In this document: positions 9,433-31,566 of the stretch, one piece after another | How the letters are laid out: each line of letters opens with the position of its first letter | Numbering within the stretch: position 1 is the first letter of the stretch | Assembly (NCBI GenBank): GCA_017467705.1 | Contig: JAFUSC010000134.1 | Location: 1-32,765 of the forward strand | DNA from: Prevotella sp. | Lineage (GTDB): Bacteria; Bacteroidota; Bacteroidia; Bacteroidales; Bacteroidaceae | Length of the DNA stretch: 32,765 nt | Reading direction: 5' to 3' | Translations under genes and position numbers: made by a program | The notes under the pieces: model-generated | Seen by the model: the letters and a program-made list of their open reading frames with translations, nothing else | What the model was told of the DNA's origin: nothing | Databases searched by the model: none

Positions 9433-9440
9433 GTTTAAAT

Positions 9441-10343: not shown

Positions 10344-10412
10344 TTTTACTTTTACTTTAGCTTTTCTTTTTCTTATACTTTGTGCTTCTAAGTATACAGT
10401 AGTTATGCCATT

Positions 10413-12188: not shown

Positions 12189-12217
12189 ATTGATATTGTT
12201 GTTTTAAGTTGTTAGTG

Positions 12218-13999: not shown

Positions 14000-14106
14000 C
14001 AAAGTTACGCTGTTTAGGCAGAATCGGCTTATTGATTTGTTTCGTTGCCCTACGATATTGTTACATCCGTTTCATGATGCGTAACTTCGGAATGTCCATT
14101 TGTTTC
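14000..14106 (-). promoter_or_regulatory. Promoter and candidate HTCS operator of the lipoprotein-GH98 operon
   Basis: The -7 box is TAACTTTG (14007-14000), about 50 bp before the ATG; no TTG is seen at -33, as expected of an activated promoter. On the minus strand four half-sites start at exactly 21-bp steps: GAAACAAAT (14106), GTTACGCAT (14085), GTAACAATA (14064) and GAAACAAAT (14043). The third starts 57 bp upstream of the -7 box, as at the two other PUL promoters. The stretch TTCTGCCTAAACA before the -7 box is nearly the same at the susC promoter. Confidence 0.6.
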
Positions 14107-14113
14107 GCGCCAA

Positions 14114-15628
14114 TTATTCTTTTGTGGTTGCGGGGATTCCGTAAGGTACAAGACGCATGTTGGCGATGCAGAACTGGAAGTTGGAAAGCATCTGGGCCGG
14201 GTGTGTGTCATCTAACTGGTAATTGATCAGTTTGATGATGGCCTGCTTATTGTTCTGCTTCAGGTAGTTCATGAGACTTCCTACGGTTGCATACGTTTCA
14301 CTTTCCGTGATGCGGAACGCAGAGAGTGGAATGGTGTATGTCTGCCAGCCGTTGGCAAATGAGACTGTAGCATTTAAATCCCACATGGCTGTTTGGGCAA
14401 ACCAAGACTGAGTAAGTGATTTCCCTTGATCCTTATCCAGCCTGAACGACATGAAGCCAGTGTTCCATAGTGGCTGCCCGTCGCTATAGACATAGATGTC
14501 CATTTCGATGGCAACCTCCTTACACTTGCTGCGGGTGGTGATGAGGCCGTCGGAGTGGTCAATGACGTATTGCATACGGTCACCCATGCTGAAACGTATC
14601 ATTCCCGTATTGGGGTCAAGATTGTTGTCAATACCCCATGGCGTAGGCGTTTCACCGAAGAAGCATAGCATATACTCTGGATTGATGATGCCGGGAGCTT
14701 CTGTCAAGGCGTGACCATCAGGCAAATTGTCTGCTGCTACAACGGAAACCTTGTCGAACAGACTTTGTGTGATATTGATGCTGTTCTCGAACTCAGTATC
14801 GGTATAAGGACTTTGTGTCCCGTGGGTACTGAAGTCGTGGAAGAATACGCAGTTCTGGCAGAACATGGCCGGTGAATAGGCGTTGACATGAGCTCCTGTT
14901 GCCTGACAGCGCACATAGCCTGACGTCAGTTCTACTGATGGTACGGTGAACTGGATTTGACGTGATGTGGCGTTGAAATCGTTTACTTCTGTTTCTCCTG
15001 TCGGAGTGGGCAGGTAGAGGTGGTCTACGAACTGGAGGTTACGCCCGGTCAGCGTTACGGTCTCTCCTGCTTGCGGCAGGGTACGGTCTACCCCCGTAAT
15101 GGAGGGCTGTGGATCGCCAGTGCGGGTGAGCGTGCACATCGTTGTGACGGCATCATTCTTCACGGCGTAGAGCACCATTGTGTTGTTGCCCGTGTGTACG
15201 CCTTTTATCTTAACGGCACCAGCTGCCGTGGCTGCGGCATGAGGGGTCAGGTCGATGGTAGAGCCGTCAAACTCATAGCTATATGTCAGGTTGCAAATAG
15301 AGTCACGCATGGTGCTGGTGGCATCAACAAACCAATGGGAGAACACAGCTTCGGCATCGTTTACACTCTGGAACTCTACGCGATATGACTGTTCAAAGTG
15401 GTTGGTGTTGTCAGTTCCGACTTCTGATACTCCTTCCCAAATGCCAAACAGTTGGTCTGCTGACAGCGTGACGCCTTGTGCTATGGTGGTGCTCTCCGGT
15501 TCCGGGAGTGATGGGATGTCTATATCGGAGCTACACGACGTCTGCATCGTGCAGACGGATAAATTACAAATGATAAGTGATAAGCTTATCAGATGTTTTT
15601 GATGTATCTTGGTAATCATCGTTTTCAA
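14114..15628 (-). CDS. Surface glycan-binding lipoprotein (SGBP-B type) with IPT/TIG domain
   Basis: 504 residues. The signal peptide ends in a lipobox-like MQTSC (Cys32). An IPT/TIG-like Ig domain lies at about residues 173-255 (PSITGVDRTLPQAGETVTLTGRNLQ). The C-terminal 250 residues (FFHDFSTHG, GWQTYTIPLSAF, FCIANMRLVPYG) resemble the glycan-binding domain of SGBP-B proteins such as those of xyloglucan and xylan PULs. It is fourth in the susC operon, 10 bp after the preceding gene. The role is to hold polysaccharide near the SusCD complex. The hydrophobic part of the signal peptide (HLISLSLIICNLSV) is encoded by repetitive DNA with a perfect palindrome TGATAAGCTTATCA (15578-15591). The start could be Met1 or Met4. 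Confidence 0.75.
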   Translation of the reverse strand: MKTMITKIHQKHLISLSLIICNLSVCTMQTSCSSDIDIPSLPEPESTTIAQGVTLSADQLFGIWEGVSEVGTDNTNHFEQSYRVEFQSVNDAEAVFSHWFVDATSTMRDSICNLTYSYEFDGSTIDLTPHAAATAAGAVKIKGVHTGNNTMVLYAVKNDAVTTMCTLTRTGDPQPSITGVDRTLPQAGETVTLTGRNLQFVDHLYLPTPTGETEVNDFNATSRQIQFTVPSVELTSGYVRCQATGAHVNAYSPAMFCQNCVFFHDFSTHGTQSPYTDTEFENSINITQSLFDKVSVVAADNLPDGHALTEAPGIINPEYMLCFFGETPTPWGIDNNLDPNTGMIRFSMGDRMQYVIDHSDGLITTRSKCKEVAIEMDIYVYSDGQPLWNTGFMSFRLDKDQGKSLTQSWFAQTAMWDLNATVSFANGWQTYTIPLSAFRITESETYATVGSLMNYLKQNNKQAIIKLINYQLDDTHPAQMLSNFQFCIANMRLVPYGIPATTKE

Positions 15629-15638
15629 TCTTTAGTTT

Positions 15639-16328
15639 TCAATTACGGAAGTTTATTTCGCCCGAGTACACTTTCTCTGTGAAGGTGATGTTTCTCACCG
15701 TGTCAGTTTTCTCCAAGACAATCTCGCAGCGTCCTTTGGCGAATGTTACGTCGTCGGGAATGATGGCGTGGACATTCGTCTCATCGTTCTCTCGCAAAGC
15801 GTCAATTTCGCATTTCGTTCGCCCACCGAAGGCAAGTGGCAGCCATACTTCCTGCGCGCCGTCAAGATGAGTACCCGTAATGGTGAGTGTACGCCCTGCA
15901 ATGAGTGTTGTTGCTGAGAAGGCAGTGATGGTCGGCTGTTCCGAGGCGGGACGTATGATGAAATGATAGTCGTCCATGCCCCAACGGGTTACTACGCGGA
16001 TATTGTCTCCCTCTGTGTTTACATCCGAAGGTAGCTGGAAGGTGATGTTCGTGTCTGATTCATAGACAAACAGCGTGTTCAGGTTGATGTCTGTGCCATT
16101 GACAATAACACGCTTCAAGTCACTCAGATGCTCGCCATGCAGACAGATGGTCTGGCCAGGGTAGGCAAACTCGGTTTGCTCAATGGGAGCCTCTACCATG
16201 TTATACCACACGCTGTCAATGCGCGGACCTTCCTCGTCCTTGCTGCATGATACCAGTAGCGTCAGCAATAGGCAATAGCCCATAATTGTTACTGCATTGG
16301 TCATTCGTTTTGTTCTCTTCTTATCCAT
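15639..16328 (-). CDS. IPT/TIG-domain lipoprotein of the PUL
   Basis: 229 residues. The lipobox is LVSC (Cys28), then SKDEEG. Two Ig-like IPT/TIG domains can be seen: about 34-130 (AYPGQTICLHGEHLSDLKRVIVNG) and about 133-225 (ITAFSATTLIAGRTLTITGTHL). There is no obvious separate glycan-binding domain, so it may be a spacer or short accessory SGBP. It lies between susD (53-bp gap) and the larger SGBP gene in the susC operon. Cell-surface location is likely from the lipobox and context. Confidence 0.75.
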   Translation of the reverse strand: MDKKRTKRMTNAVTIMGYCLLLTLLVSCSKDEEGPRIDSVWYNMVEAPIEQTEFAYPGQTICLHGEHLSDLKRVIVNGTDINLNTLFVYESDTNITFQLPSDVNTEGDNIRVVTRWGMDDYHFIIRPASEQPTITAFSATTLIAGRTLTITGTHLDGAQEVWLPLAFGGRTKCEIDALRENDETNVHAIIPDDVTFAKGRCEIVLEKTDTVRNITFTEKVYSGEINFRN

Positions 16329-16381
16329 GATGTTCTGGTGTTTTGTCTTGTCTAATGCTTATCATCTCATTCTTTCATCTC

Positions 16382-18319
16382 TTATGGTGTCAGGTAGTCC
16401 TGACGGTGATTGATAATGTCAGTGAAGTCAAACGTTACGGGTGCTTTCTGTAGGTTTGCATCCTGCATCATCTCCGTCGGTGGATAGATCATAGACCAGA
16501 GATTGTCGCTGGTGCCCAGTTCCTGATTGTGACAATAGCTGCCCTCGGGAATGTTGTGCACGCACTCACGGCTGGGCTGTATGATGGTATAGCTGCCGTC
16601 AGCAGCGTTGGTGCTGAGGGTGGGGGTGCCGATTTTTGTCAGGTCATCATTCTTCTTATAGCTGTATTTGTAGAGACGGTGACAACCCATCAGTGGCTCA
16701 TCCTCTAAGTCTGCTAACCTGTTGTTTTGATAGTTGAGCATCCGCCGTAAGTGGCTCTCACCCATAAATGAGCGCCTTACGATATCAGTCCAGTAGAGCC
16801 CTTCGGCAAAGAATTCCAACCGACGCTCCAACAATATGGAGTCAAGGTTGACGGTGGTATAGTCGCCGGGATAGGTTCCGTTCTGTAGTTCCGTCTTGTA
16901 GGCACGGCGGCGCACGGCGTTGATATTCTCCATGACGCGCGGGCTGGTGGTGCTCTCCTCACCGTAAAGGCCCATTAAGGCTTCGGCCAGATTGAGATAT
17001 ACTTCGCTCAGTCTGATCATGGGGGTGCAAAAACCTGAATTGCCCTGAATGGCTATGTTGTCTGTTCCCAATGGGCCGCCCACCACTTGTTTCTTGATGG
17101 CCACGGGGTCCCACGAGTTACGTTCAACGGTCCATGCTGTGCCCTTGGTGTGGCAGGTGTCCTGCTCATGGTAGAGGTAGTCGTAGGTCATGCCGTGGGG
17201 CATGATGTTGCCACGTGTGCGGGTCAGTCCGCCCCGCCGCTGTGACAGCAGCACCATGTCATAGCTGGCCCAGTTGAAGTAGGTGATGCCGTAGTTCTTG
17301 TTAATGCAACGGTCGTAGCAGAACATTCCCTGTAGCTCATTGCCTAGCCCATAGCTGGTGCTTGAGGCTACGGTCTGGATGGCAAACAGCACCTCCGGGC
17401 AGTTGTTGTTCTGTACGCGGAACAGCTGTTCATAGTCATCCATCAAGGCATAGCCTCCCTGAGGAGCCAATTCCAGAGCCTTGCGTGCGGTGAGGGCAGC
17501 TTTAGCGTAGTAGAATTCTTCAAGCGAGAGCTTGGCACCATACTCTATATCATCGGCATAAAAAGTATCAAGCACTTCGCTCCGGAACGTTTCTGTAAAA
17601 TGATTGCCCTTGGCCCATGCAGCAGCCGTCAGGTAAATGCGCGACAACAGTGCCCATGCGCTGACCTGTGAAACGCGCCCTTTGGCTTCGGGTACTATGG
17701 GCAGCCAACGTGCGGCATACTCTGCATCACACAGGGCGTACTGTATGACGCTTTCGAAGGTGTTGGCATAGGCTGTCGGACTCTGTGTGACAGGGTCGTC
17801 CACGATGGGAACATCATGCCAGTACATAGCCAGATACCAGTAAGCCAGTGCCCGCATGAAGCGTGCCTCACCTACACAGGCGTTCACTTCCGACTCTGTG
17901 CTGATTTCGTTCTCTCTGCAGTAGGGGGCATAGTCATTGATGATGTAGCTGGCCTGTGTGATGACATTGTAAAGTGAAGCCCATGAGTATTGTATAGAGG
18001 CATTCTGTCTTTCCTCGTTGAGTGTGGCCTGCGCGTTCACTTCGCCCAGTGTGGAGTTGGAAATATAGAAGTTGTTGGCGCGGGCATCACCCAGTGAGAT
18101 GAAGCGTTGTTTCATGAAGTAGTACCACGGCTGTGCATAGAGTCCTGCTGTGGCTGCTCGCAGCGCACTGATGTCTGTCAGCTCGTCGTGAGCTGGCACG
18201 ATGCGTTCATTGGTGGTATCCAGATAGCCGTCGCAGGACACAAGAAGTCCCCCACCGATTCCCCCGAGGGGGAGGGCGGTTGCCACACCGACAAATAAAT
18301 TAATAATATTCCGTCTCAT
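16382..18319 (-). CDS. SusD/RagB-family glycan-binding outer membrane lipoprotein
   Basis: 645 residues. The lipobox is LLVSC (Cys29) followed by DGYLDT, a usual SusD start. The helical TPR-type core is visible (ALRAATAGLYAQPWYYFMKQ, EARFMRALAYWYLAMYW), with the RagB/SusD C-terminal block RLSEVYLNLAEAL and VNLDSILLERRLEFFAEGLYW. It caps the SusC barrel and captures oligosaccharides. It lies 78 bp downstream of susC in the same operon. Oddity: the hydrophobic core of the signal peptide, ALPLGGIGGGLL, is encoded by a copy of the palindromic repeat (18248-18279). Confidence 0.9.
   Translation of the reverse strand: MRRNIINLFVGVATALPLGGIGGGLLVSCDGYLDTTNERIVPAHDELTDISALRAATAGLYAQPWYYFMKQRFISLGDARANNFYISNSTLGEVNAQATLNEERQNASIQYSWASLYNVITQASYIINDYAPYCRENEISTESEVNACVGEARFMRALAYWYLAMYWHDVPIVDDPVTQSPTAYANTFESVIQYALCDAEYAARWLPIVPEAKGRVSQVSAWALLSRIYLTAAAWAKGNHFTETFRSEVLDTFYADDIEYGAKLSLEEFYYAKAALTARKALELAPQGGYALMDDYEQLFRVQNNNCPEVLFAIQTVASSTSYGLGNELQGMFCYDRCINKNYGITYFNWASYDMVLLSQRRGGLTRTRGNIMPHGMTYDYLYHEQDTCHTKGTAWTVERNSWDPVAIKKQVVGGPLGTDNIAIQGNSGFCTPMIRLSEVYLNLAEALMGLYGEESTTSPRVMENINAVRRRAYKTELQNGTYPGDYTTVNLDSILLERRLEFFAEGLYWTDIVRRSFMGESHLRRMLNYQNNRLADLEDEPLMGCHRLYKYSYKKNDDLTKIGTPTLSTNAADGSYTIIQPSRECVHNIPEGSYCHNQELGTSDNLWSMIYPPTEMMQDANLQKAPVTFDFTDIINHRQDYLTP
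18248..18279. repeat. Palindromic repeat copy 3, within the SusD signal peptide
   Basis: CCCCCGAGGGGGAGG with a flanking second block CCCCCACCGAT, the mirrored layout of the copy at 3242. It is read in frame on the minus strand as LPLGGIGGG. Confidence 0.65.
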
Positions 18320-18364
18320 ATATATATTATTCTTTTTTGTTTAAACACATTTTCATCTATACAT

Positions 18365-18396
18365 TCCCTCCTCTTGGGGAGGGTCAGAGTGGGGGC
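18365..18396. repeat. Palindromic repeat copy 4, between susC and susD
   Basis: CCCTCCTCTTGGGGAGGG followed by TCAGAGTGGGGGC, ending one base before the susC stop codon. Same layout as the other copies. With copy 3 it brackets the short susC-susD gap. Confidence 0.7.
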
Positions 18397-18397
18397 T

Positions 18398-21300
18398 TTA
18401 AAATGTTGCCTCTATGCCGAATATGATGCTTCGGGGAGCGGGTACGCGGCCCGTGTCAACACCATACATCAGCATGCCCTGTCCTGTCATGGAGTACTGT
18501 CCGTTCTGGCTACCCACTTCGGGGTCATAGCCAGTGTAGCCTGTCAGTGTCCAGACATTCTGGATGTTAGCAGAAAGGCGCAAGTCTGACAAATAGTATT
18601 TCTTCAGCAATTGCTTCGGCACGTTGTAGGTCAGCGTGATGTTCTTGATGCGCAGGTAGCTGGCATCTTCCACGTAGCGGTCGCTGACGCGGCTGTTGTA
18701 GTTGCTGTGCAGGTTGTCGATGCGTGGGATGGAAGGTTCTGCTCCTTCAGCTACATAGACGTTCCACACGTCCAGATTGCCGCTGTTGCCGTCATGGTAG
18801 GCCCAGCGGGCGTAGCTGCCGGTGCGGGTGTATTTGTTCCATGCTGCACCACCCGGCGTCAGTGATGGATCGTCCATGCGGCGGCGTGTCCAGTTGAAAA
18901 CCTTGTTCCCCACGCTGCCATACATGAAGATACTGAGTCCAAACTGCTTCCATGTAAACGTGTTGTTCCAGCCGAAGGTGTACTTGGGTAATCCGTTGCC
19001 GAGGAATGTTTTGTCATTGTCGTCAATGATTCCGTCGCCGTTCAGGTCTTTGAACAGCAGGTCGCCGACGCTGGTTTTCAGGTCTGCGGCTGAGGCATTG
19101 CTTACCACCGTGCCTACGCGGTAGTTAGGCGTGGCTGCCGTGACAGTGCTGGTGCCGTCGCCGTTGTCACGCAGGAAGTCGGCAGCCGAGTTGATGCGCC
19201 CGGCCACGCGAAAACCATAGAACTGGCTGATGCCGTAGCCGACGGCAGTGCGGGTGATGGTCTCACCCGTTCCCTCGTAGTCAAGGGTCTTGTCAATGAA
19301 GCCTGACTCTGTGTTCAGACTGGTCACCTTGTTCTTTACCAGCGAGTAAGTGAGTGAAGTCTTCCACTTCAGGTTCTTCTTATTGAGTATGTGAGCATTA
19401 AGTGTAAACTCTATGCCTCGGTTACTCATGTTGCCTACATTGGCCCACTGCGGCTCGGCACTACCGGTCACCTTGGTCGACGTGCCGCTGTAGAAGGGTA
19501 GGGCAGTCTGCATCAGCAGGTCGCGGGTGTTTTTCCAGAAAGCATCGAAGATGAACTCTATGCGGTTGTCCAACAGGTTCAGGTCCAGTCCCACGTTCCA
19601 CGAGTCGGTCTTCTCCCATGTCAGCTTGTCATAGTTAGGCATGTTGGCTGTCTTGTAGCTTGTGCCGAAGTTTGACTCAAGATTGGAGAAGTTGGCCATG
19701 AAGGTGCTTTCCGTCAAGTTAGCATTACCCACCAGACCGTAGCCCAAACGCAGCTTCAGGGAGTTGATGGCTGCCACGATGGGTGACTTCTCCTGTAGCT
19801 GCATCCAGAAGTCTTCTTCTGACACACGCCAGCCGAGAGCAGCCGAGGGGAACGTGCCCCAGCGCTGTCCGCGCTCGAAGAGCGACGAACCGTCGTTGCG
19901 CAGCGTGCCGGTGAACATGTAACGGTCCTTATAATTATAGGTAAGGCGTCCGAACATGCTGCTGTAGCGGCGTGTGGTGCTGTAGCCGGCATTGTCGTCG
20001 CGGCTGGCATCGCCGCCTGATAGAGCCTCGTTTGTGTTGGAGCCGCCCAGACGCTGACCGTAGAGATAGTCACGATAGCGGTTGTTCATCTCCACACCCA
20101 GCATGGCTGACACCTTGTGACCGCCCTTCAGCTTCCAGTTGCCCGTGGCCACTGACTTCAATGACCAGTAGAGGTTAAATGTCTTCGTGGTCTGGTGAGT
20201 GGCATATTCGCGGGTGGCTCCGTTCTCGCCTAACTGATATTCAGGCAGCAGATAGCGGTAGTTGTCCGTGTTGGTGTCGTAGGTGCCTTCTGTCTTCCAG
20301 CTGAGCCAGCTCCACGGCTTCACGGTGAAGTATATGTTCGTACGTTGGCTTACAATCTTGTTCTTACGTGTCGTCAGCTCTGCCAGCGCCACAGGGTTCG
20401 GCTGCCACGTGTCGGTGTCGCCGTTGAATCCCGACTTGGCCCATGAGCCGTCAGGGTTGCGCACGGCATTATTCGGCGTGTCGCTCAGTGCGTTGGGCAC
20501 CACGTCCCACGAGGCCATGCCTGTGTTGCGGTCGGACTGTCCTAAGTTGAACGTCGCTCCAATGTCAAGCCAGCTGTAGGCTTTCACGTCGACGGAGCCG
20601 CGTAGGGTCAGACGGTGGAAGTCATTGTTCGTGGTGATGCCCTCCTGCGAGAAGTAACCACCTGACAGACTGTATTTGATTTCCTTGCTGCCGCCGCGTA
20701 TGGACAGGTTGTACTCCTGTCGCAGACCAGTGCGGAACAGGGCATCCTGCCAGTCGCTGCCAGCACCGAGTGTCTCGGGGTTGGCAAACATGTTGCTCAC
20801 CTTGCTCGTTGCACGTTGCAGGTTGGCTTCGCGGGCCCACTCTGCAAACTGGTGCAGGTCCATCACGTCGAGTTTGTGGGGCAGCATGTCCCAGCCCACT
20901 TGTGTCTTGAAGTTGACTTTGGGTGCCGAGCCCTCCTTGCCTTTCTTCATGTTGACAATAATGACGCCGTTGGCTGCCTGTGCTCCATAGATGGCTGTGG
21001 CCGAGGCATCCTTCAGTATCTCAATGCTCTCCACGTCGTTGGGGTTCAGGTCGGCCAGCGGGTTGCTAAACACGTCGGCGCCTGCATCTTGTGTGATGAT
21101 GGCACCGTCAATGACGTAGACCGGTTCGTTGCTTGAGTTCAGCGAGTTCACACCGCGAATCTGTATGCTCGTCGAACCGCCCGCTGCGCCGCTGTTCGAC
21201 GTCAGCTGCATGCCCGCAGCGCGTCCTTGCAGCATCTGGTCCATCGTTGAGGATGATGTCTGTTGCATGTCGTCGGCTTTCACTGACACGACAGAGCCGG

Positions 21301-21652
21301 TGATGTCGCTTCGCTTCATGGTGCCATAGCCCACTACTACAACTTCGTTCAGCACGTGTGAATCGTCTTGCATCACAACCTTCATGCCTGTGCCTGCTTT
21401 TTCCTCCTTCGGCTTATAGCCGATATAGGTGAACACCAGCACAGCGTTCTTGGGTACTTGCAGCTTGAAGTTTCCGTCCAGGTCAGTCACTGTGGCCACC
21501 TGCGAGCCTTTCATCTGCACCGTGCAGCCAATCAGCGTCTCACCCGTTTCGTCGGTCACGGTTCCAGTCGCCGTCACCATGTCCTGAGCCGCAGCCGTCA
21601 GCGGAGCCAGCAGCATCAGCACAACGAGGTTTAAGAGAATTCTTTTCTTCAT
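18398..21652 (-). CDS. SusC/RagA-family TonB-dependent outer membrane transporter
   Basis: 1084 residues. A signal peptide (1-22) ends APLTAAAQ. A carboxypeptidase-regulatory-like domain covers about 27-100 (GTVTDETGETLIGCTVQMKG, FTYIGYKPKEE). The TonB box region and plug follow (NEVVVVGYGTMKRSDITGSV, IQIRGVNSLNSSNEPVYVIDG, IEILKDASATAIYG). The remaining 830 or so residues form the beta-barrel and end in the terminal Phe strand SIIFGIEATF. It imports oligosaccharides across the outer membrane with energy from TonB, together with SusD. First gene of a four-gene operon (susC, susD, IPT lipoprotein, SGBP). The promoter upstream has regularly spaced HTCS-like half-sites. Confidence 0.95.
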   Translation of the reverse strand: MKKRILLNLVVLMLLAPLTAAAQDMVTATGTVTDETGETLIGCTVQMKGSQVATVTDLDGNFKLQVPKNAVLVFTYIGYKPKEEKAGTGMKVVMQDDSHVLNEVVVVGYGTMKRSDITGSVVSVKADDMQQTSSSTMDQMLQGRAAGMQLTSNSGAAGGSTSIQIRGVNSLNSSNEPVYVIDGAIITQDAGADVFSNPLADLNPNDVESIEILKDASATAIYGAQAANGVIIVNMKKGKEGSAPKVNFKTQVGWDMLPHKLDVMDLHQFAEWAREANLQRATSKVSNMFANPETLGAGSDWQDALFRTGLRQEYNLSIRGGSKEIKYSLSGGYFSQEGITTNNDFHRLTLRGSVDVKAYSWLDIGATFNLGQSDRNTGMASWDVVPNALSDTPNNAVRNPDGSWAKSGFNGDTDTWQPNPVALAELTTRKNKIVSQRTNIYFTVKPWSWLSWKTEGTYDTNTDNYRYLLPEYQLGENGATREYATHQTTKTFNLYWSLKSVATGNWKLKGGHKVSAMLGVEMNNRYRDYLYGQRLGGSNTNEALSGGDASRDDNAGYSTTRRYSSMFGRLTYNYKDRYMFTGTLRNDGSSLFERGQRWGTFPSAALGWRVSEEDFWMQLQEKSPIVAAINSLKLRLGYGLVGNANLTESTFMANFSNLESNFGTSYKTANMPNYDKLTWEKTDSWNVGLDLNLLDNRIEFIFDAFWKNTRDLLMQTALPFYSGTSTKVTGSAEPQWANVGNMSNRGIEFTLNAHILNKKNLKWKTSLTYSLVKNKVTSLNTESGFIDKTLDYEGTGETITRTAVGYGISQFYGFRVAGRINSAADFLRDNGDGTSTVTAATPNYRVGTVVSNASAADLKTSVGDLLFKDLNGDGIIDDNDKTFLGNGLPKYTFGWNNTFTWKQFGLSIFMYGSVGNKVFNWTRRRMDDPSLTPGGAAWNKYTRTGSYARWAYHDGNSGNLDVWNVYVAEGAEPSIPRIDNLHSNYNSRVSDRYVEDASYLRIKNITLTYNVPKQLLKKYYLSDLRLSANIQNVWTLTGYTGYDPEVGSQNGQYSMTGQGMLMYGVDTGRVPAPRSIIFGIEATF

Positions 21653-21735
21653 AGACAGTTCTTTATGTTTGTTTTAAGCTTTCAAATCAGGCCATCAAAA
21701 AAATGCACCCGCCGACAAAAGGGTGTCAGCGAGTG

Positions 21736-21843
21736 CAAAGTTACTGTGTTTATGCAGAAAAGGGATTGCTCGGAATACCCGTGTTCCCACTAATTGTTAA
21801 GTCATCACTTCCGGTCTGTTACATTTGACATTGTTTTTGTTTC
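21736..21843 (-). promoter_or_regulatory. Promoter and candidate HTCS operator of the susC operon
   Basis: The -7 box is TAACTTTG (21743-21736). Half-sites on the minus strand start at 21843 (GAAACAAAA), 21822 (GTAACAGAC) and 21800 (TTAACAATT), steps of 21 and 22 bp; the last starts 57 bp before the -7 box. The block TTCTGCATAAACA before the -7 box is shared with the 14007 promoter. The distal half-site overlaps the stop codon of the HTCS gene. Confidence 0.6.
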
Positions 21844-24800
21844 ACTCCGTGTCCGTCAACCCCTTTTTCTGGTGCTTTTGTATGTATTCAGTCGGTGTTA
21901 CGCCGAAGTGTTTCTTAAAGGCTGACGAGAAGTGGGTGGGGTTGGCAAAGCCCACGGCCCATGTCACTTGTGCCACGGTGGTGTCGCCTGCGGCCAGCAA
22001 CTTGGCAGCCTGTTGCAGGCGCAGGTTACGGATAAACTCACCCACGGTGATGCCTGTCAGTTCCTTCATGCGGCGATGCAGCTGTACGCGACTCAGGCCG
22101 ACCTCTGAGGCCAGTGCTTCCACGTTGAAGTCGCTGTCATCTATCCGTGCATTGACGGCTTTCATGATGCGCTCCATCAGGGCGGCATCGTTTCCTTTCA
22201 GCTCTATTTGCCGCACGGTGTCTTCCTGCTCCTGCATGCCGGTGAATTTGCCTTTCATGCGGATGCGGTTGGCAATGAGACCGGCAATGCGGGCTTCCAG
22301 TTCTTCCATGTCGAAAGGCTTGTCCATGTAGGCATCAGCTCCTTGTTCCAGTCCTTCCACACGTGCCCTGTGCTCTGTCTTCGTGGTGAGCAGAATGACG
22401 GGGATGTGGCTGGTCTTGCTGCTCCCCTTCAGTCGTCGCAGCAGTTCAATGCCGTCCATGCGGGGCATCACCACGTCGCTGATGATCAGGTCGGGCACGG
22501 TGTCTACGATGCCTTCGAGTGCCTGCTGCCCGTCCGTGTAGGTGTGTATGTGGTAGGTTTCGCCCAGCTCGGTCTTCAGGAAATTGCATATTTCCTGATC
22601 GTCGTCAACCACGGCCACATGGTAGGTGGTCTTGCGGCGCACGCGGCGGGACGGTGTTCTGGGATCAGCAGTAATGCCGCCCTCTCCCTGTTGCTGTGTG
22701 AGCGAAGCTGATACCATGGCGGTCGGTGCCTTGGCATCACTCTCATTCCCGGCTGTGACGGGCTGTGTGTGAGTCTGCTGCAGTCTGACCACGAACTCCG
22801 ACCCATGTTCCCCGTCGGTGCGGTTGGTGGCGGTGATGGTGCCGTGGTGCAGTGTGACTATCTTCTGTGTCAGGTTCAGGCCGATGCCGTAGCTCATCTG
22901 TCCGGCTGCCGGGCGTGCTGATGCCTGATAGAAACGCTCGAAGATTTTGCGCAGCTGTGCCTCGTCAATGCCCTGGCCGTTGTCGCGTACGGTGAGCTCT
23001 GCTGATTGATGTTCAGCGGTCTCACGGACTATTACCTCTATCTTGCCTCCGTCGTCCACATACTTGATGGCATTGCTCAGCAGGTTGGTCACCACTTTGT
23101 CGAAGTGGTTGGGGTCGATGCTTACTCCCATGTCGGGAGCCTGATTGTCAAACGTCAGCGTAATCTTGCGGCGTTCCAGTTGGTAGTCGTAGTCATGGCA
23201 GATGTCACCGACAAAGTCGCCCAGCCGTACGTTGATGGGGTGGAGCGTCAGCTGTCCTTTCTCAATCTTGCGGATGCTCAGTATTTGGTTGGTCAGAGCG
23301 AGCAGGCGGTCGGTGTTGCGTTCTATGTTGCGCAGGGCCCGCGTCTGTGCGGGGTCTTTTGAATTGTTCAGCAGTTTGCTGAGCGGACTCTTGATGAGCG
23401 TCAGCGGTGAGCGCAGTTCGTGGCTGATGTCGACAAAGAACTTGATCTTCTCCTCGTTGATGTCAGCCTGCCGTTTGTTCCAATAGTAACGCCATGCGAG
23501 TGTGGCCATGGCGAGTAGCAGCAGCAAATAGACAAAGTAGGCTCCCCACGAGCGGTACCACGGGGGCGTGACGTGGATGGTCAGCTGCTTCTCCGGCGAA
23601 TAGACGCCATTGTCGTAGGCCCTGACGAGCAGGCGGTGGGTGCCTGCGGCTAAGCGTGACAGGAAAATCTCATTGACACCTGATGCTGTCTGGTGCCACA
23701 CATCGGCCGGCTCGTCGGCAAAGCGGTACTCGTAGTGAACATTCTGGGCATCGCGGAAGTCCATCGACGAGAAGCGCAGGCTGAATGTGTTGTCAAGATA
23801 GGAGACGGTGATGTCGCTGGTCAGCTCCAATGGTTCGCTGATGATGGTACTGCCGTTCGACCGCGTAGAGACGTTGACGTTGATGTCGCCCAGACGCATG
23901 CCCGTCAGGGTGATGCCTTGGGTGAACTCGTCCTTCTTGATTTTCTCTGGTGTAAAATATGTGATGCCGTTCTGGTTTCCCATGATGACCTCACCCGCCC
24001 CCGAGTAGGCATAGACACCGCGCAGATACTGCCACTCCTGCAAACCATTGCCGCGGTAGTAACGGGTGAAGTGTCCGTCGGGCTCTATCTGTGCCATGCC
24101 ACGGTAGGTGCTGACCCAGATGGTCCCGTCAGAGGTGATGACTAAACCGCAGACAATGTCGTTGGGTAATCCCTCCTTGGTGGTAAAACGCTTCCACTGA
24201 CCGCGCCCGTCGCCTTCGGTGAAGTATTGGAACAAACCCTTGCTGCTGCCTATCCAGATGGAATGGTCCTTGGGTGACTGTCCGATGACGTAGACAATGG
24301 CTGGGCGCAGCGCCTCGGGGATGCCGACGTCTGTCAAGCGGTCGGTCTTCGGGTCGTAGACGTCGACGCCGTAGTAGTGGCCTATCCAGATACGGCCGTC
24401 ATTGGCGGTGAACAGCGTGTTCAGGTAATGGTTTGTCAACTCCAACTTTCCGCCGCCCAGCGTGCGCTCGGTCTGGCCGTCGGGGGTGTAGCTGTGCAGC
24501 CCATCGTTGAACACGGCGGTGTAGAGATTGCCCGACTGGTCATGCGTGATGCTGCCGATGCGCTGTGTGCCCGTCAGGAGCAACCACTCCTCGTGGCCCG
24601 TCTGCGGGTCAATGCGGAACATGCCGTTGCGGAAGGTGCCTGCCCAGAACGTGCCCTGCGCGTCCTCATGGATGGTCATCACCGTGTGGTCGCCCATCCA
24701 GTGATGCAGCGTATGCCCCTTCCGGTCAATGCTTGTGATGCCGCCTTTCTCCTGACAGATATACACATGCTTGTTTTTATCAGCATAGACGAAGCGCAGC

Positions 24801-25849
24801 ACATTGCCGTTATTTGCCTCCAGCTGGTCAAGGGCGAGGAAATGGAAGGGGGCTTCCTTGGGCGAGATGAGCAGCAACCCCTTCTGGCTACAGCCTATCC
24901 ACTGGTTGCCGTCGCGGTCTTCCAGATAAGCATACACCTTCTCTGCGTTACAGTTGAATGGCAAGTCGTTCTGCCCCTCTGTGTGTACCAGCTGATGCGC
25001 GGTGAGGTCAATGCTCCACAGTCCGCTGCCTGACGTGCCCATGAGCAGTTGTCCGTGGCGGTTCTGATAGAGCCGGTGAACGGAACGGCGCTCGAAGCTG
25101 ACCACCGGCTCAAACTGCTGCGTCTGCTCGTTGAGCTGCAGCACGTCTGTGTAGGTGGCTATGGTCAGATGGTGTTGCTGGTCCTCCGTGATGTCAAGCG
25201 GGCGTTTGGCCCGCAGCTCTGCTTCACCGTAGAAGTGGCTGCGGTTGCTCTTCGGGGCTACCTGCAGCAGTCCTTCGTCACGATAGCCGATCCACAGCCG
25301 TCCGCGGCTGTCAACGTACATGTTGTCGCACTCTGATTTCTTCTTGATGTGCTTGTTCACGCTGTCCATCGGACGGGCCGTCAGGTCAGCCGTGTTGACT
25401 TCAAACACACCCTCGTCGGCATGCAGCACCCAGATGTGCCCGTCTGCCGTCTGCAAGATGTCGTTGGCATTAACAGAAAGCTCTTCGCCGTAGTCCATCA
25501 TGAACCTGACGGTCTCAAAGGCGTCAGTCAGGCAGTTGTAGCGTTGCACGCTCCGGTTGGTCAGCACCCACAGCGTGCCGTCGCGGTCGGTCATCATGTG
25601 GCGCACAATGTTGTCGGAGAGCGATTGCGGGTTGCTGTCGTCGTTGAAATACTGGGTAAAGAATACACCGTCGAACTTGTTGAGCCCGTACTCCGTGCCA
25701 ATCCAGATGTAGCCCTGCTGGTCTTGGCAGAGGCTGGTGATTTGGTTCGACGACAGCTGGCTGCCATCGAAGAAGCGCGGCACGGCAACTGCCTGCAGCA
25801 CCATGAGGACCGTCAGCAGCAGCATGCAAAGTCTTTGTGTTTGTTTCAT
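21842..25849 (-). CDS. Hybrid two-component system regulator (HTCS) of the PUL
   Basis: 1335 residues, all modules present. A signal peptide covers 1-22. Residues about 28-640 are Reg_prop beta-propeller repeats (GYIWIGTEYGLNKFDG, GRLWIGYRDEGL, GRIWIGHYYGVDVYD and others). A Y_Y_Y domain covers about 695-760 and a membrane helix about 770-787. Histidine kinase: FFVDISHELRSPLTLIKSPL with His810, N-box NLLSNAIKY (922-930), G-boxes DNGQGID and GIGLNLTQKIV. Receiver about 1077-1190 with Asp1125 in IISDVVMPRMDG. AraC-type DNA-binding domain about 1238-1330 (VGLSRVQLHRRMKELTG, VGFANPTHFSSAFKKHFG). The periplasmic part senses an oligosaccharide and the protein activates PUL promoters in cis. Adjacent susC fixes its role; xylan fragments are the inferred signal. 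It has its own promoter. Confidence 0.95.
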   Translation of the reverse strand: MKQTQRLCMLLLTVLMVLQAVAVPRFFDGSQLSSNQITSLCQDQQGYIWIGTEYGLNKFDGVFFTQYFNDDSNPQSLSDNIVRHMMTDRDGTLWVLTNRSVQRYNCLTDAFETVRFMMDYGEELSVNANDILQTADGHIWVLHADEGVFEVNTADLTARPMDSVNKHIKKKSECDNMYVDSRGRLWIGYRDEGLLQVAPKSNRSHFYGEAELRAKRPLDITEDQQHHLTIATYTDVLQLNEQTQQFEPVVSFERRSVHRLYQNRHGQLLMGTSGSGLWSIDLTAHQLVHTEGQNDLPFNCNAEKVYAYLEDRDGNQWIGCSQKGLLLISPKEAPFHFLALDQLEANNGNVLRFVYADKNKHVYICQEKGGITSIDRKGHTLHHWMGDHTVMTIHEDAQGTFWAGTFRNGMFRIDPQTGHEEWLLLTGTQRIGSITHDQSGNLYTAVFNDGLHSYTPDGQTERTLGGGKLELTNHYLNTLFTANDGRIWIGHYYGVDVYDPKTDRLTDVGIPEALRPAIVYVIGQSPKDHSIWIGSSKGLFQYFTEGDGRGQWKRFTTKEGLPNDIVCGLVITSDGTIWVSTYRGMAQIEPDGHFTRYYRGNGLQEWQYLRGVYAYSGAGEVIMGNQNGITYFTPEKIKKDEFTQGITLTGMRLGDINVNVSTRSNGSTIISEPLELTSDITVSYLDNTFSLRFSSMDFRDAQNVHYEYRFADEPADVWHQTASGVNEIFLSRLAAGTHRLLVRAYDNGVYSPEKQLTIHVTPPWYRSWGAYFVYLLLLLAMATLAWRYYWNKRQADINEEKIKFFVDISHELRSPLTLIKSPLSKLLNNSKDPAQTRALRNIERNTDRLLALTNQILSIRKIEKGQLTLHPINVRLGDFVGDICHDYDYQLERRKITLTFDNQAPDMGVSIDPNHFDKVVTNLLSNAIKYVDDGGKIEVIVRETAEHQSAELTVRDNGQGIDEAQLRKIFERFYQASARPAAGQMSYGIGLNLTQKIVTLHHGTITATNRTDGEHGSEFVVRLQQTHTQPVTAGNESDAKAPTAMVSASLTQQQGEGGITADPRTPSRRVRRKTTYHVAVVDDDQEICNFLKTELGETYHIHTYTDGQQALEGIVDTVPDLIISDVVMPRMDGIELLRRLKGSSKTSHIPVILLTTKTEHRARVEGLEQGADAYMDKPFDMEELEARIAGLIANRIRMKGKFTGMQEQEDTVRQIELKGNDAALMERIMKAVNARIDDSDFNVEALASEVGLSRVQLHRRMKELTGITVGEFIRNLRLQQAAKLLAAGDTTVAQVTWAVGFANPTHFSSAFKKHFGVTPTEYIQKHQKKGLTDTE

Positions 25850-25901
25850 GTCAGTATGTAGTACTACGTCTTTTTTTGTTTAATGGTTAGTATGCTGGCT
25901 G

Positions 25902-25934
25902 CAAAAGTACAAAATAATTCTTAATTATAACAAA
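25902..25934 (-). promoter_or_regulatory. Promoter of the HTCS gene
   Basis: TTTG (25934-25931), 21-bp spacer, TACTTTTG (25909-25902). It fits a constitutive Bacteroidetes promoter. The half-site spacing of the PUL operons is absent, though two GTTAAC palindromes lie 16 bp apart further upstream (25968-25973 and 25984-25989). Confidence 0.6.
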
Positions 25935-26051
25935 TGCAAGCTGAATTATTTTCCGAATTAAACATGAGTTAACCAAAAAAACTGTTAACTGTGTTAAATT
26001 TTCAGGTTGAATTTTCCTGCAATTTTTCGCGTAACTACGATTCAACAGTGA

Positions 26052-26227
26052 CCTCAAACGGTGCTTTTGGTGTGTTAGGCGGCACCTTTCGGGTAGTTAG
26101 GCGGCACCTTTCGAGTGGTTAGGCGGCACCTTTCGACCCGCAAATCGGCACCTCTCGACCTGCAAATCGGCACCTCTCGACCCGAAAATCGGCACTTTTC
26201 AGGGTCTAAAACGGCATGTTTTGCATG
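26052..26227. repeat. 22-bp tandem repeat array, about eight units
   Basis: Eight consecutive 22-bp units between the HTCS promoter and the terminator of the upstream gene. The core CGGCACCTTTCGA is well kept in the five central units (for example 26074, 26096, 26118, 26140, 26162). Flanking units are degenerate (cores ACGGTGCTTTTGG and ACGGCATGTTTTG). Unit heads are of two types, GTTAGG (first three full units) and GCAAAT (next two). A possible ninth unit begins near 26228. It lies outside any gene. Confidence 0.8.
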
Positions 26228-26410
26228 CCCAAATACCGGCTGTTTTCGTTTCACGTTGATTATCAGTGAGTTACTAAGTGGCCTGTAATTCGCGTATTTT
26301 CGACCGAAGTCGGACTTGCTGAAAGAGAGGCCCTTCTCCAAGTTAAAGGATTTTGGCTGATTGTTAAACTTTGCAAAACGATCTGGACGTTTTCTTGACC
26401 GTTTGGGGAT

Positions 26411-26446
26411 AAAAAAGAATGGATGCGGCAGTCGCTGCACCCATTC
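26411..26446 (-). terminator. Terminator of the 167/53/479-aa operon
   Basis: On the minus strand GAATGGGTGC (26446-26437) pairs with GCATCCATTC (26426-26417, one G-U), followed by six T's. It starts 25 bp after the stop of the 479-residue gene. Confidence 0.85.
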
Positions 26447-26471
26447 TCCAAAACAATTATAAATTTAACAA

Positions 26472-27911
26472 TTACTTAACAACGAATTTGCGTCCGTTCT
26501 TGATGACGATGCCCTTATAGTCAGCACCTACGCGCTGGCCCTGCAGGTTATACATCACACCGTTCTCCTGCTGCACATCGCTGATGGCATTGATGGTAGT
26601 CGTCTCGCTGTCGTTGAAGTTGACATCAAGACGGGCACCTGCACCCTCATTGGTGATATAGGCACGGAATGGAGCAATTGTTACACTGCCAGACGTGGTG
26701 ACGGAGAAAGTTCCGTTAGTTGAGTTATATCCGTAAGCACCAGCAGGAACTGTGTTGTCCTTCATGGAACCGACGAATGTGGCAGTTCCTACTGTATATG
26801 AACATGCTTTAGGAGCCACGACGGTCTTCCCTTTAAATCCGGAGAATGGAGTTCCTGTTTCATTGGCTACGAACACGTAGGGCTTGTAAGCTTCAGTTGC
26901 ACCCGTTACCTCGGTAAAGGTCAGGGTTGAACTTGTAGCTGCAGTCAGCTCATAGAATTTACCGTTAATGGCTGCTACTTCTTCTGCTGTCAGAGCGAAG
27001 GGAAACCATACGGTAGACTTCTGGTCTTTGGTGAACGAGCGGGTGTAGGCTTCGCTGCGAACAAGGAACATGTTTGTGGGAAGAATCTTGGCAGAGCCTG
27101 AATTGTCTTTCGAGCCAAACTGAATCTTTGTAGCACTGCCAGCAGCTGAGGAATAGCTGCTAAGGTCAATATGTTTGACTCCACCACCGCCATAACCGTC
27201 TCCACTTACAGGTGTGAAGGTTGAGCCGTCATGGAAACCGATGCGCATCATACCAGTTACATTCTGAATCTCAAACTGGAGTTTCCCGTATTTCGAGAAA
27301 TCACCTGCTGAGCCTGTATAACAATCCATCAGATTGTTGTTGCCTGCTGTAGCACTGTATACGGTGTTTGTGTAGGTGGCATTGCTTGCTGGCTTGGCAA
27401 AGCCTGCAGTCACAACAGCATCGTTATCATTTTCTAAATATACACATGTCCAGTCGATGACCACAGAATAGGAATTCCCTGTTCCGGGGTCAGAGGCACC
27501 ACCGATTCTAATGGCCGTCACATCGGCCAAGGTATGGTTAACACCATCTACGGTCAAATCCGTGTCTCCCCACTTCTCTCCAGAGGAGAGGTCAATGCTC
27601 TTGTCATTATAGTTATACCAAATAAAACTCTTGTTCTTACCGTCGCTGAACAGCACATTAGCGCGCCACTCTTTAGAATACGTGCCACCGATTCTGACAA
27701 CCTTTAAAGCCTTATAGGTAGCAAGTTCACCATTACTGAAGGTGAAAACAGTCATCAGGTTGTCTGAGTTCTTGGTCCAGGTATAGGTGCATGTCTCTGT
27801 ATTGTACGAACCACCCGAACCTGTAGGAGCAACGAATGTAGCATACTTTCTATCAGCATTTGCCGTGCCCACGGCGAGCATCATTGCAAAAAGGAGTATA
27901 ATCTTTTTCAT
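26472..27911 (-). CDS. Secreted protein with two PUL modules and a sorting-type C-terminal tail
   Basis: 479 residues. The signal peptide MKKIILLFAMMLAVGTANA is cleaved before DRKY and there is no lipobox. Module 1 (about 21-160: YTWTKNSDNLMTVFTFSNGELATYKALK, split here only by description; VTAIRIGG) and module 2 (about 163-287: NNLMDCYTG, RIGFHDGSTFTPV, IQFGSKDNSGSAKI) are divergent relatives of the lipoprotein modules. Residues 288-440 form another domain common in Prevotella secreted proteins (STVWFPFALT, KPYVFVAN, IAPFRAYIT). The end, VMYNLQGQRVGADYKGIVI to KFVVK, resembles a type IX secretion tail. It is third in an operon with the 167- and 53-residue genes, whose promoter carries the HTCS-like operator. 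No catalytic motif is seen; a secreted glycan-binding role is inferred. Confidence 0.7.
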   Translation of the reverse strand: MKKIILLFAMMLAVGTANADRKYATFVAPTGSGGSYNTETCTYTWTKNSDNLMTVFTFSNGELATYKALKVVRIGGTYSKEWRANVLFSDGKNKSFIWYNYNDKSIDLSSGEKWGDTDLTVDGVNHTLADVTAIRIGGASDPGTGNSYSVVIDWTCVYLENDNDAVVTAGFAKPASNATYTNTVYSATAGNNNLMDCYTGSAGDFSKYGKLQFEIQNVTGMMRIGFHDGSTFTPVSGDGYGGGGVKHIDLSSYSSAAGSATKIQFGSKDNSGSAKILPTNMFLVRSEAYTRSFTKDQKSTVWFPFALTAEEVAAINGKFYELTAATSSTLTFTEVTGATEAYKPYVFVANETGTPFSGFKGKTVVAPKACSYTVGTATFVGSMKDNTVPAGAYGYNSTNGTFSVTTSGSVTIAPFRAYITNEGAGARLDVNFNDSETTTINAISDVQQENGVMYNLQGQRVGADYKGIVIKNGRKFVVK

Positions 27912-27963
27912 TTTTTCTTTTCTGTTTATTTATATGGTTAATACTTTTGTTTGAACACACATG

Positions 27964-28125
27964 TTATTCGTCGAAATCGTCATCGTCCCATTCGCGGGAG
28001 CCGAAGCTGCCACTGATCATACCTTCAGCGCTGCCCGTGTCCTCAGTTTGTGAGCCAGCCAGCAGGCTCTGCGACAGGTTCATCATGTGAACGCTCATCT
28101 CTGGTTTCTCGTAAATCTTTTTCAT
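27964..28125 (-). CDS. Small acidic 53-residue protein of unknown function
   Basis: ATG at 28125 to TAA at 27964. The protein begins MKKIYEKPEMSVHMMN, has LLAGSQ near residue 21, and ends SREWDDDDFDE. The layout (a basic MKK.Y..P start, a short hydrophobic patch with a small-residue 'LAGS' motif, a Gly/Ser-rich middle, and an acidic Trp/Phe-Asp tail) recalls small unnamed Prevotella proteins found beside secreted proteins. It has no signal peptide of normal length, no Cys and no recognisable domain. It lies 35 bp after the 167-residue gene and 52 bp before the 479-residue gene, in the same operon, and is missed by a 60-codon cut-off. Coding is supported by its position, its start and its composition; the function is not known. 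Confidence 0.6.
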   Translation of the reverse strand: MKKIYEKPEMSVHMMNLSQSLLAGSQTEDTGSAEGMISGSFGSREWDDDDFDE

Positions 28126-28160
28126 TGTCTGAATGTGTTTGTTTGTTTATTGTTTATGGT

Positions 28161-28664
28161 TTATTGTATAGTCACTTCGCCGAACTGGGTCTCCCACGGT
28201 TCCTCATTGCCGTCGACAGCCTTGGCCATGGAGATGCGGATGCTGGTGACATTCTTCAGCACGTCTTCACCAATCTTGCCGTCCTTGGTCAGGTCAGCCG
28301 TTACCTTGGTGTCGCTGGTGATGGTCTTGCCCATGCTGCGATAGAACTGGGCGGCATCAACCTGCTGCTGCTTGCCGTCGGCATCCTTGTAACGAATCAC
28401 CACCTTGAGCATGCAGGTGCTCTTCTTGATGACCATGGTGAGCTTGGTGTGCTGCGTCAGGTCGCCGCTCACTTCGGGCAGGTCGAACCAACGGTCCCAC
28501 TTCTCTTTAAAGGTGGCGGTGAGCGTCTCTTCGTCGAAGTCGCAATTACCACCGTGCTTGGTCACGTTCTCCATGTCGATGATCTTCCAAGGAGTCTGTT
28601 GCTGTGCCACTGCTGTGAGGGCGAACATTGCCACGAGGGCTACAAACATTACTAATCTTTTCAT
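28161..28664 (-). CDS. Small secreted protein consisting of one PUL module
   Basis: 167 residues from Met at 28664 (MKRLVMFVALVAMFALTAVAQ). An upstream in-frame Met at 28694 would put ten polar residues before the signal peptide, so the later start is preferred. No lipobox. The mature part is a single divergent copy of the module found in the lipoproteins: LTATF, LTQHTKLTMVI, LKVVIRYKD, AAQFYRSMGKTI, VTSIRISM and FGEVTI keep its order of strands. It is the first gene of an operon controlled by the clearest HTCS-like operator in the window. A periplasmic or secreted glycan-binding protein is a reasonable guess; there is no catalytic signature. Confidence 0.7.
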   Translation of the reverse strand: MKRLVMFVALVAMFALTAVAQQQTPWKIIDMENVTKHGGNCDFDEETLTATFKEKWDRWFDLPEVSGDLTQHTKLTMVIKKSTCMLKVVIRYKDADGKQQQVDAAQFYRSMGKTITSDTKVTADLTKDGKIGEDVLKNVTSIRISMAKAVDGNEEPWETQFGEVTIQ

Positions 28665-28688
28665 AATCTTTAAATGTTTAAGTTTGTT

Positions 28689-28750
28689 ATTCAATGTTTA
28701 TTGTTTATTGTTTATTGTTCAATGTTTATTGTTAATTGTTTATTGTTAAT
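28689..28750. repeat. AT-rich simple repeat in the leader of the 167-aa gene
   Basis: About eight copies of TTTATTGTT or TTCAATG variants (AACAATAAAC on the mRNA strand) fill the untranslated leader. A shorter run (28141-28165) lies before the 53-residue gene. The mRNA leader would be nearly free of G and unstructured, favouring translation without a Shine-Dalgarno. Confidence 0.7.
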
Positions 28751-28762
28751 TCTTCGACGTTG

Positions 28763-28871
28763 CAAAGGTAGTCAGTTTCGCGCAGACGGGCAGTCGAAAA
28801 GCTGTCATGCACCTGCGGTTTTGTTTCGTGCGGGCTTTCGTTTTGTTTCATGACACCATCGGTTTTGTTAC
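28763..28871 (-). promoter_or_regulatory. Promoter and candidate HTCS operator of the 167/53/479-aa operon
   Basis: The -7 box is TACCTTTG (28770-28763). Three nearly identical half-sites on the minus strand start at 28871 (GTAACAAAAC), 28849 (GAAACAAAAC) and 28827 (GAAACAAAAC), each 22 bp apart. The last starts 57 bp before the -7 box, exactly as at the 14007 and 21743 promoters. There is no TTG at -33. Confidence 0.65.
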
Positions 28872-31429: not shown

Positions 31430-31487
31430 ATTGATACTTATTTTATATTTAATAGTTTGTTTTTTTGCCTGATTCTGTTTTCGCCAG

Positions 31488-31518
31488 CAAAGATAAAAAC
31501 TAATTTTCTTACCCGCAA
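31488..31518 (-). promoter_or_regulatory. Promoter of the GH115 gene
   Basis: TTG (31518-31516), 20-bp spacer, TATCTTTG (31495-31488). It gives a leader of about 50 nt and supports the start at 31429. Confidence 0.65.
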
Positions 31519-31545
31519 TAGAGCGTAACAATTTCACTATCGTTT

Positions 31546-31566
31546 GAAACAAAAGCGTTTTGTTTC
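31546..31566. promoter_or_regulatory. Perfect 9-bp inverted repeat upstream of the GH115 promoter
   Basis: Arms GAAACAAAA and TTTTGTTTC around GCG. The arm equals the half-site of the HTCS-like operators but is inverted rather than direct, and starts 71 bp from the -7 box. It is a candidate binding site for the same or a related regulator. Confidence 0.5.

Follow-up and report, generated by a model that had tools for sequence, protein, structure and literature searches.

Upstream of several genes in a xylan-type polysaccharide utilization locus (PUL) of a Prevotella-type bacterium (Prevotella sp., contig JAFUSC010000134.1), we found ladders of short direct repeats standing at a fixed distance from the promoter, beside a gene for a hybrid two-component system (HTCS) regulator with an AraC-type domain. 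The repeats are probably the operators of this HTCS, which is encoded at 21842 to 25849 on the minus strand and is the proposed activator; judging from the sequence, we place the probability of this reading at roughly 80%. The stretch analyzed, called the window here, is 32,765 nucleotides long, and its assignment as a xylan-type PUL follows from the open reading frames and Pfam. Three proposed target units, all on the minus strand, carry forward ladders: the susC, susD, IPT/TIG, and surface glycan-binding protein B (SGBP-B)-like genes (14114 to 21652); three Mfa_like_1 (fimbrillin-like) genes with GH98 (6658 to 13951); and a pair of genes without a Pfam match, encoding 177 amino acids (aa; 167 from the ATG) and 479 aa (26472 to 28694). 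A fourth proposed target, GH115 (28907 to 31552, minus strand), carries an inverted operator.

All half-sites and -7 boxes lie on the minus strand at exactly the coordinates of the original prediction. The operator of the Mfa_like/GH98 unit (14035 to 14106) consists of half-sites at 14106 (GAAACAAAT), 14085 (GTTACGCAT, weak), 14064 (GTAACAATA), and 14043 (GAAACAAAT), and its -7 box is TAACTTTG at 14000 to 14007. The susC operator (21792 to 21843) has half-sites at 21843 (GAAACAAAA), 21822 (GTAACAGAC), and 21800 (TTAACAATT) and the -7 box TAACTTTG at 21736 to 21743. At the 177-aa/479-aa unit, the operator (28819 to 28871) is made of 28871 (GTAACAAAA) and of 28849 and 28827 (both GAAACAAAA), with the -7 box TACCTTTG at 28763 to 28770. 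The steps are 21 to 22 bp at all three promoters, as predicted, and the distance from the start of one half-site to the first T of TAnnTTTG is exactly 57 bp at each. The expected half-site type, GWAACA, applied to 8 of 10 sites and failed at 14085 (GTTACG) and 21800 (TTAACA); the leading T of the 21800-type site is common to all six susC promoters found in the window and related loci. The consensus can be written as RYGWAACAAAW, where position +10 weakly favors C and position +14 weakly favors G. The housekeeping Bacteroidetes promoter (-33/-7) has the consensus TAnnTTTG with an upstream TTTG. A TAnnTTTG -7 box was present at every window promoter considered, and the predicted lack of a -33 TTG was borne out, with no TTG between -35 and -10 at the three window promoters or, when related forward promoters are included, at 11 of the 13 listed. 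The prediction that uxuA, uxuB, and the HTCS gene lack such a ladder also held at the matrix-scan threshold used.

The ladders exceed what chance would produce. A matrix built from the orthologous loci only, with the window excluded, scored the three window ladders at 47.0, 31.1, and 27.9, the top triples in the window, and the best triple in 200 dinucleotide shuffles scored 19.4. A scan with a matrix trained on forward ladders also returned weak pairs, three in the window (sums, 12.8 to 13.5) and two in the related locus L004 (12.6 and 19.2), which we took as noise. In the window's own genome (2.53 Mb in 170 contigs, 77% complete), the pattern AACAN{16,18}AACAN{49,53}TANNTTTG matched three times, twice in the window and once on contig C156, and its reversed control did not match at all. 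A looser search there for further regulon members by AACRAA pairs was abandoned as background, since its 21 matches compared with 35 in the reversed control showed no enrichment.

The 57-bp register is conserved in relatives that hold the HTCS, and this favors the earlier interpretation of the repeats as a direct-repeat operator of the AraC-domain kind. The HTCS was found at an E value of ≤1e-256 in 6 of 398 same-genus genomes, the window's own included, and its identity was 66% in G234, 65% in G187, 59% in G389, 58% in G322, and 62% (residues 5 to 773) in G302. In a wider contig scan, the sole orthologue among seven loci was L004, from an uncultured Prevotella (46% identity). Gene order was mostly conserved in five of six loci; G322 differs beside the HTCS gene. 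At the first loci the distance from box to site was left free between 50 and 64 when the best triple was picked, and the susC triple nevertheless ended at 57 in all six loci with susC downstream of the HTCS (the window, G234, G187, G389, G302, and L004), in each of which the ladder was conserved. The 177-aa promoter had the value 57 in five of six loci (the window, G187, G389, G302, and G234), and Mfa-type units with their own promoter had it in three of three (the window, G389, and the L004 genome). The Mfa operator matched in register in G389 (L049), and the Mfa-like gene of the L004 genome (L172) has sites at both -57 and -36; this -57 half-site and that of the 177-aa gene of G234 were read from loci fetched later. 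In G234, G187, and G302, the Mfa genes begin no more than about 100 bp past the SGBP gene, and no ladder was found between them. Overall, 14 of 15 own or related promoters had the distance 57, and the exception had 59. Between orthologues, the half-site cores were 71 to 90% identical, compared to 25 to 47% for the spacers. The sites, their spacing, register, and orientation and their conservation in HTCS-holding loci are thus observed directly.

The original prediction left GH115 out of the regulon. It correctly noted that the forward arrangement is missing there; however, half-sites are present in inverted orientation, so that its three units stand and GH115 is probably to be added as a member through inverted half-sites, judging by their match to the forward ones. 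The operator (31525 to 31554, plus strand) has half-sites at 31525 and 31546 directed against the gene, the nearest lying 30 bp from the -7 box TATCTTTG (31488 to 31495, minus strand), and a -33-like TATTG is found at 31516 to 31520 on the minus strand. These sites were found by a matrix trained on forward ladders only, and with the matrix built from orthologous loci the pair scored 23.3 compared to 21.1 for the best pair in 200 shuffles. Inverted half-sites upstream of GH115 number two in the window, four each in G389 and G302, and three in G234, with steps of 21 or 43 to 44 bp, and in all four of these close loci the nearest one is exactly 30 bp from the -7 box; the stretches retrieved covered the GH115 promoter in these loci and in L004 but not in G187 or G322. 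The -33 position reads CTATTG in all four, whereas TTG is absent from most of the forward promoters. G302 also has a second GH115 gene on a different contig (52% identical), where a weaker triple of inverted sites lies at 29 bp. In the window, a forward and an inverted half-site together form the palindrome GAAACAAAAcgcTTTTGTTTC at 31546 to 31566 of the GH115 promoter, which was not seen by eye in the other three close copies.

A genus-wide search for the inverted register gave no general peak, and this counts against extending the inverted geometry. Its 75 matches included 7 at the GH115 length of 65, 17 at 67, and 10 at 69, and an inverted rule for the genus or the family was dropped for lack of a clear peak (the family set was judged by eye). 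The length-67 matches look palindromic by eye, with TGTWACA half-sites. Among 10 loci with matches of length 69 or similar ones of length 68, 8 have one type of divergent gene, and 6 of these also have a small gene on the other side; Pfam identified the pair at two such loci (L177 and L180) as AraC-type HTH_18 and Ferritin, and the set was rejected as HTCS promoters on this ground. This conserved divergent AraC-type/ferritin-like promoter (L175 and L177 to L183) carries two reversed TTTGTNTCRTTT-type repeats at 21-bp spacing, and 34 bp separate this pair from the ferritin-like gene's -7 box. Therefore, GH115 is not alone in having a reversed 21-bp array. The inverted geometry itself is shown for the GH115 gene of the present locus only.

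The reading that the 57-bp arrangement is private to the three window promoters was not supported. In 27 loci of other HTCSs (36 to 39% identical), 50 TAnnTTTG boxes lay near open reading frames; 19 of them had GNNAC[AG] at -36 and 16 had it at -57, compared to a mean of 0.74 per position over positions 15 to 129; 18 boxes had both sites within one base. These peaks place 57 among the positions of a grid that HTCS promoters share. In the own genome, five of seven pattern matches fell exactly at -57/-36, the window's Mfa promoter among them; the other four precede two SASA-type carbohydrate esterases, an MFS_2 sugar transporter, and a TonB-plug (susC-like) gene. In a family sample of 26 genomes, lengths 65 and 66 accounted for 27 and 12 of 124 matches (other lengths averaged 2.9), and for 14 and 11 of 99 when the own genus was removed; in a genus sample of 60 genomes, they accounted for 26 and 11 of 49, together 37 of 49. 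A 22-bp step and a box displaced by one base look alike in these two lengths. Outside the family, in a phylum sample of 25 genomes, they accounted for 0 and 1 of 42 matches, which gives no evidence for the register there. The HTCS promoters of the genus and family thus use a common -57/-36 grid, and the sharing of this register speaks for an HTCS as the regulator of the present ladders. The forward ladders of the present regulon reach upstream to about -100 and are mostly without a recognizable -36 site, and the matrix profile did not support a degenerate -36 half-site at all susC and 177-aa promoters.

In favor of assigning the repeats to this HTCS, a sequence-only model, R1, built from 12 forward ladders, gave best E values of 2.7e-11 to 9.9e-5 in all seven HTCS carriers and of 0.03 or worse in all nine noncarriers. 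The noncarriers were picked by hand from 392 genus genomes, and eight of the nine hold other HTCS matches at E values of ≤1e-100. Several results weigh against the assignment. Six of the seven carriers had trained R1, and full-length matches (E ≤ 1e-5) were confined to those six, which makes this control partly circular; we lowered our confidence from about 83% to the 80% given above for this reason. The untrained carrier, G322, yielded only partial matches on other contigs (E values of 1e-4 and 0.012). One is a pair at -57/-36 that precedes a 479-like gene, and the other is an off-register pair near a distant susC-like gene. The window's own GH115 ladder reached only an E value of 0.6 with R1, its pair score still exceeding all shuffles. 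In L004, the 177-aa promoter is the one with 59 in place of 57, and the inverted pair of GH115 lacks a -7 box at the 30-bp distance. A match on contig C90 of G302 fits neither the forward nor the inverted register. Furthermore, no additional regulon member stood out in the 77%-complete own genome, and the resemblance of the half-sites to those of other HTCSs makes cross-talk possible.

That resemblance raises the question of whether several HTCS paralogues read the GWAACA half-sites, with the ladder integrating more than one sensor. The GNNACA half-sites in matching register at other HTCS promoters speak for such sharing, as do the five own-genome -36/-57 promoters, all of which precede PUL-type genes. 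However, full-length ladders (E ≤ 1e-5) occurred in six of the seven carriers and in none of the nine noncarriers, a contrast tempered by the training of R1 on those six carriers, and we consider a shared operator rather unlikely. A stronger contender, which we rate at somewhat below even chances, is that the working proximal site is a degenerate one at -36 at all promoters, so that the ladder is an ordinary -57/-36 pair with affinity sites added upstream. Clear -36 sites at the Mfa promoters of the window and G389 agree with this, as do recognizable ones at the L004 susC and G234 177-aa promoters. Across 11 susC and 177-aa promoters, though, the mean matrix score at -36 ranked only third among positions 14 to 51, and 10 of the 11 scored below zero there.

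The regulator could also be of another kind, an AraC-type one-component protein, a SusR-like protein, or an extracytoplasmic function (ECF) sigma factor. An unrelated AraC-type regulator of the genus does have a divergent promoter with GAAACAAA-like repeats at 21 bp, yet the only further DNA-binding candidate among 17 window proteins scanned was an HU-like protein (1289 to 2047), the promoters have the standard TAnnTTTG box, and SusR-like repeats are described in the text of PMC3878776 as 67 or 77 bp between centers, unlike the 21- to 22-bp spacing found here. We therefore regard this explanation as quite improbable. Chance, or low-complexity AT-rich repeats, might be suspected from the A-rich cores and from the unenriched AACRAA pairs (21 compared to 35 in the reversed control), but the performance of the ortholog-trained matrix against shuffles, the conservation of cores over spacers, and the register in orthologues contradict it and leave it a negligible likelihood.

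Control by the HTCS encoded at 21842 to 25849 is the explanation we prefer, and it would operate as follows. The protein combines a propeller, HisKA, HATPase, a receiver, and an AraC-type HTH_18 domain, and its H-box, receiver Asp, and SHIP motif are intact on inspection; the SHIP motif has been linked to blocked DNA binding until phosphorylation in the text of PMC11253607. Xylan oligosaccharides would bind the periplasmic propeller, the kinase would phosphorylate the receiver within the same chain, and this would release the AraC-type DNA-binding domain. As a dimer or a higher array, the domain would bind RYGWAACAAAW direct repeats two helical turns apart. At the susC, 177/479, and Mfa/GH98 units, the array would face the promoter on a grid of about -100, -78, and -57 (also -36 at Mfa) and substitute for the absent -33 element. 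At GH115, it would be reversed, with 30 bp between its nearest half-site and the -7 box, and the promoter there retains a -33-like TTG. We infer which protein binds, its phosphorylation, the contact with RNA polymerase, the transcription starts, and the xylan signal. In a broader formulation, which we hold to be slightly more probable than its negation, one HTCS acts through two mirror-image geometries, forward on -100/-78/-57/(-36) at promoters without a -33 element and backward on -30/-51 (with more sites upstream) at the promoter that keeps one, and the forward grid is a family-wide law that makes targets readable from sequence.

A separate feature was noted at the susC promoters. In the window, the end of the susC -7 box is also the start of a terminator-like hairpin that has a T run (21704 to 21737, minus strand), and the HTCS gene's TGA stop codon (21842 to 21844) lies within the first susC half-site's overlap. 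Behind codirectional HTCS genes, similar hairpins overlap the susC -7 box or lie next to it in the orthologous loci L044, L046, L048, and L051 and in loci of other HTCSs within L014 to L040. The orthologous loci show it in five of six cases, with z scores of -4.7 to -7.6; L004 (z score, -0.7) has a strong hairpin just upstream of the susC box instead. In the 27 loci of other HTCSs, counting hairpins of -12 kcal/mol or better that overlap the -7 box and taking a codirectional frame of at least 900 codons as an HTCS, a hairpin covered 8 of 19 boxes downstream of an HTCS-type frame compared to 0 of 37 other boxes; the L014 and L017 hairpins are identical in sequence. By inspection, the -7 box lies within the hairpin loop in L014, L017, and L033. 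This means that the 5′ arm would be missing from a transcript starting past the box, and that the complete hairpin would form only when transcription reads through from the HTCS gene. The hairpin is thus a plausible one-way insulator, which may shield susC from HTCS read-through and spare transcripts whose start lies within the 5′ arm or beyond it.

Among the remaining window genes are uxuA and a mannitol-dehydrogenase-like gene (uxuB), as assigned by Pfam along with the target genes. The Mfa_like_1 trio (9441 to 13951) shares its unit with GH98 within the xylan PUL, and related tandem genes occur at orthologous loci; the fimbrillin-like genes are possibly surface glycan-binding proteins. The leader of the 177-aa gene (28690 to 28755) is a run of imperfect AACAATAAAC-type repeats. 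Like PUL-XylL of Bacteroides ovatus, the locus combines a GH98 xylanase, a GH115 glucuronidase, and an HTCS; the text on PUL-XylL mentions neither operators nor fimbrillin-like genes (PMC4491172).

The closest known operators are those predicted for 16 HTCSs of Bacteroides thetaiotaomicron, direct repeats of two conserved sites an average of 21 bp apart, for which dimers bound to a single face of the DNA were proposed in the main text of Ravcheev et al. 2013 (PMC3878776). The present ladders share the direct repeats of about 21 bp upstream of PUL operons; unlike those operators, they have three or four sites. No fixed distance to a -7 box and no inverted operators were seen in the text consulted, and the words "inverted," "transcription start," and "Prevotella" are absent from the main text. 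Site orientation is coupled to core-promoter distance in the AraC/XylS activator MarA, whose class I marboxes are usually reversed and whose class II marboxes are forward and overlap -35, according to the text of PMC6900184. Orientation and distance were likewise fixed here, in the AraC-type manner, forward at 57 and inverted at 30, with L004 as the exception. In contrast to MarA, a monomer on one box, the present sites form multisite ladders, and the inverted array is the one nearer the promoter. In the literature consulted, supplements excluded, neither a -57/-36 register nor an inverted HTCS operator was found stated; the legend of a supplementary figure of PMC5061871 says that predicted HTCS sites are drawn with -7 boxes. 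The general type of control is therefore known, and the exact distance rule and the reversal look new. This locus departs from known systems in having ladders of three to four sites, a constant distance to the -7 box, and both orientations within a single locus.

To our knowledge, the targets of many HTCSs are unknown. Among the glycan regulators of Bacteroides, HTCSs form a major class (PMC11253607). A fixed register, with sites 21 bp apart at -57/-36 from TAnnTTTG, would turn target prediction into a search for a short pattern, one of low background because 37 of 49 genus matches fall at two lengths. The inverted operator at GH115 implies that a forward-only search overlooks likely regulon members, and GH115 compared with the forward units offers a test of how an AraC-type domain addresses Bacteroidetes RNA polymerase from two orientations. 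The fixed register also suggests why HTCS promoters manage without a -33 element.

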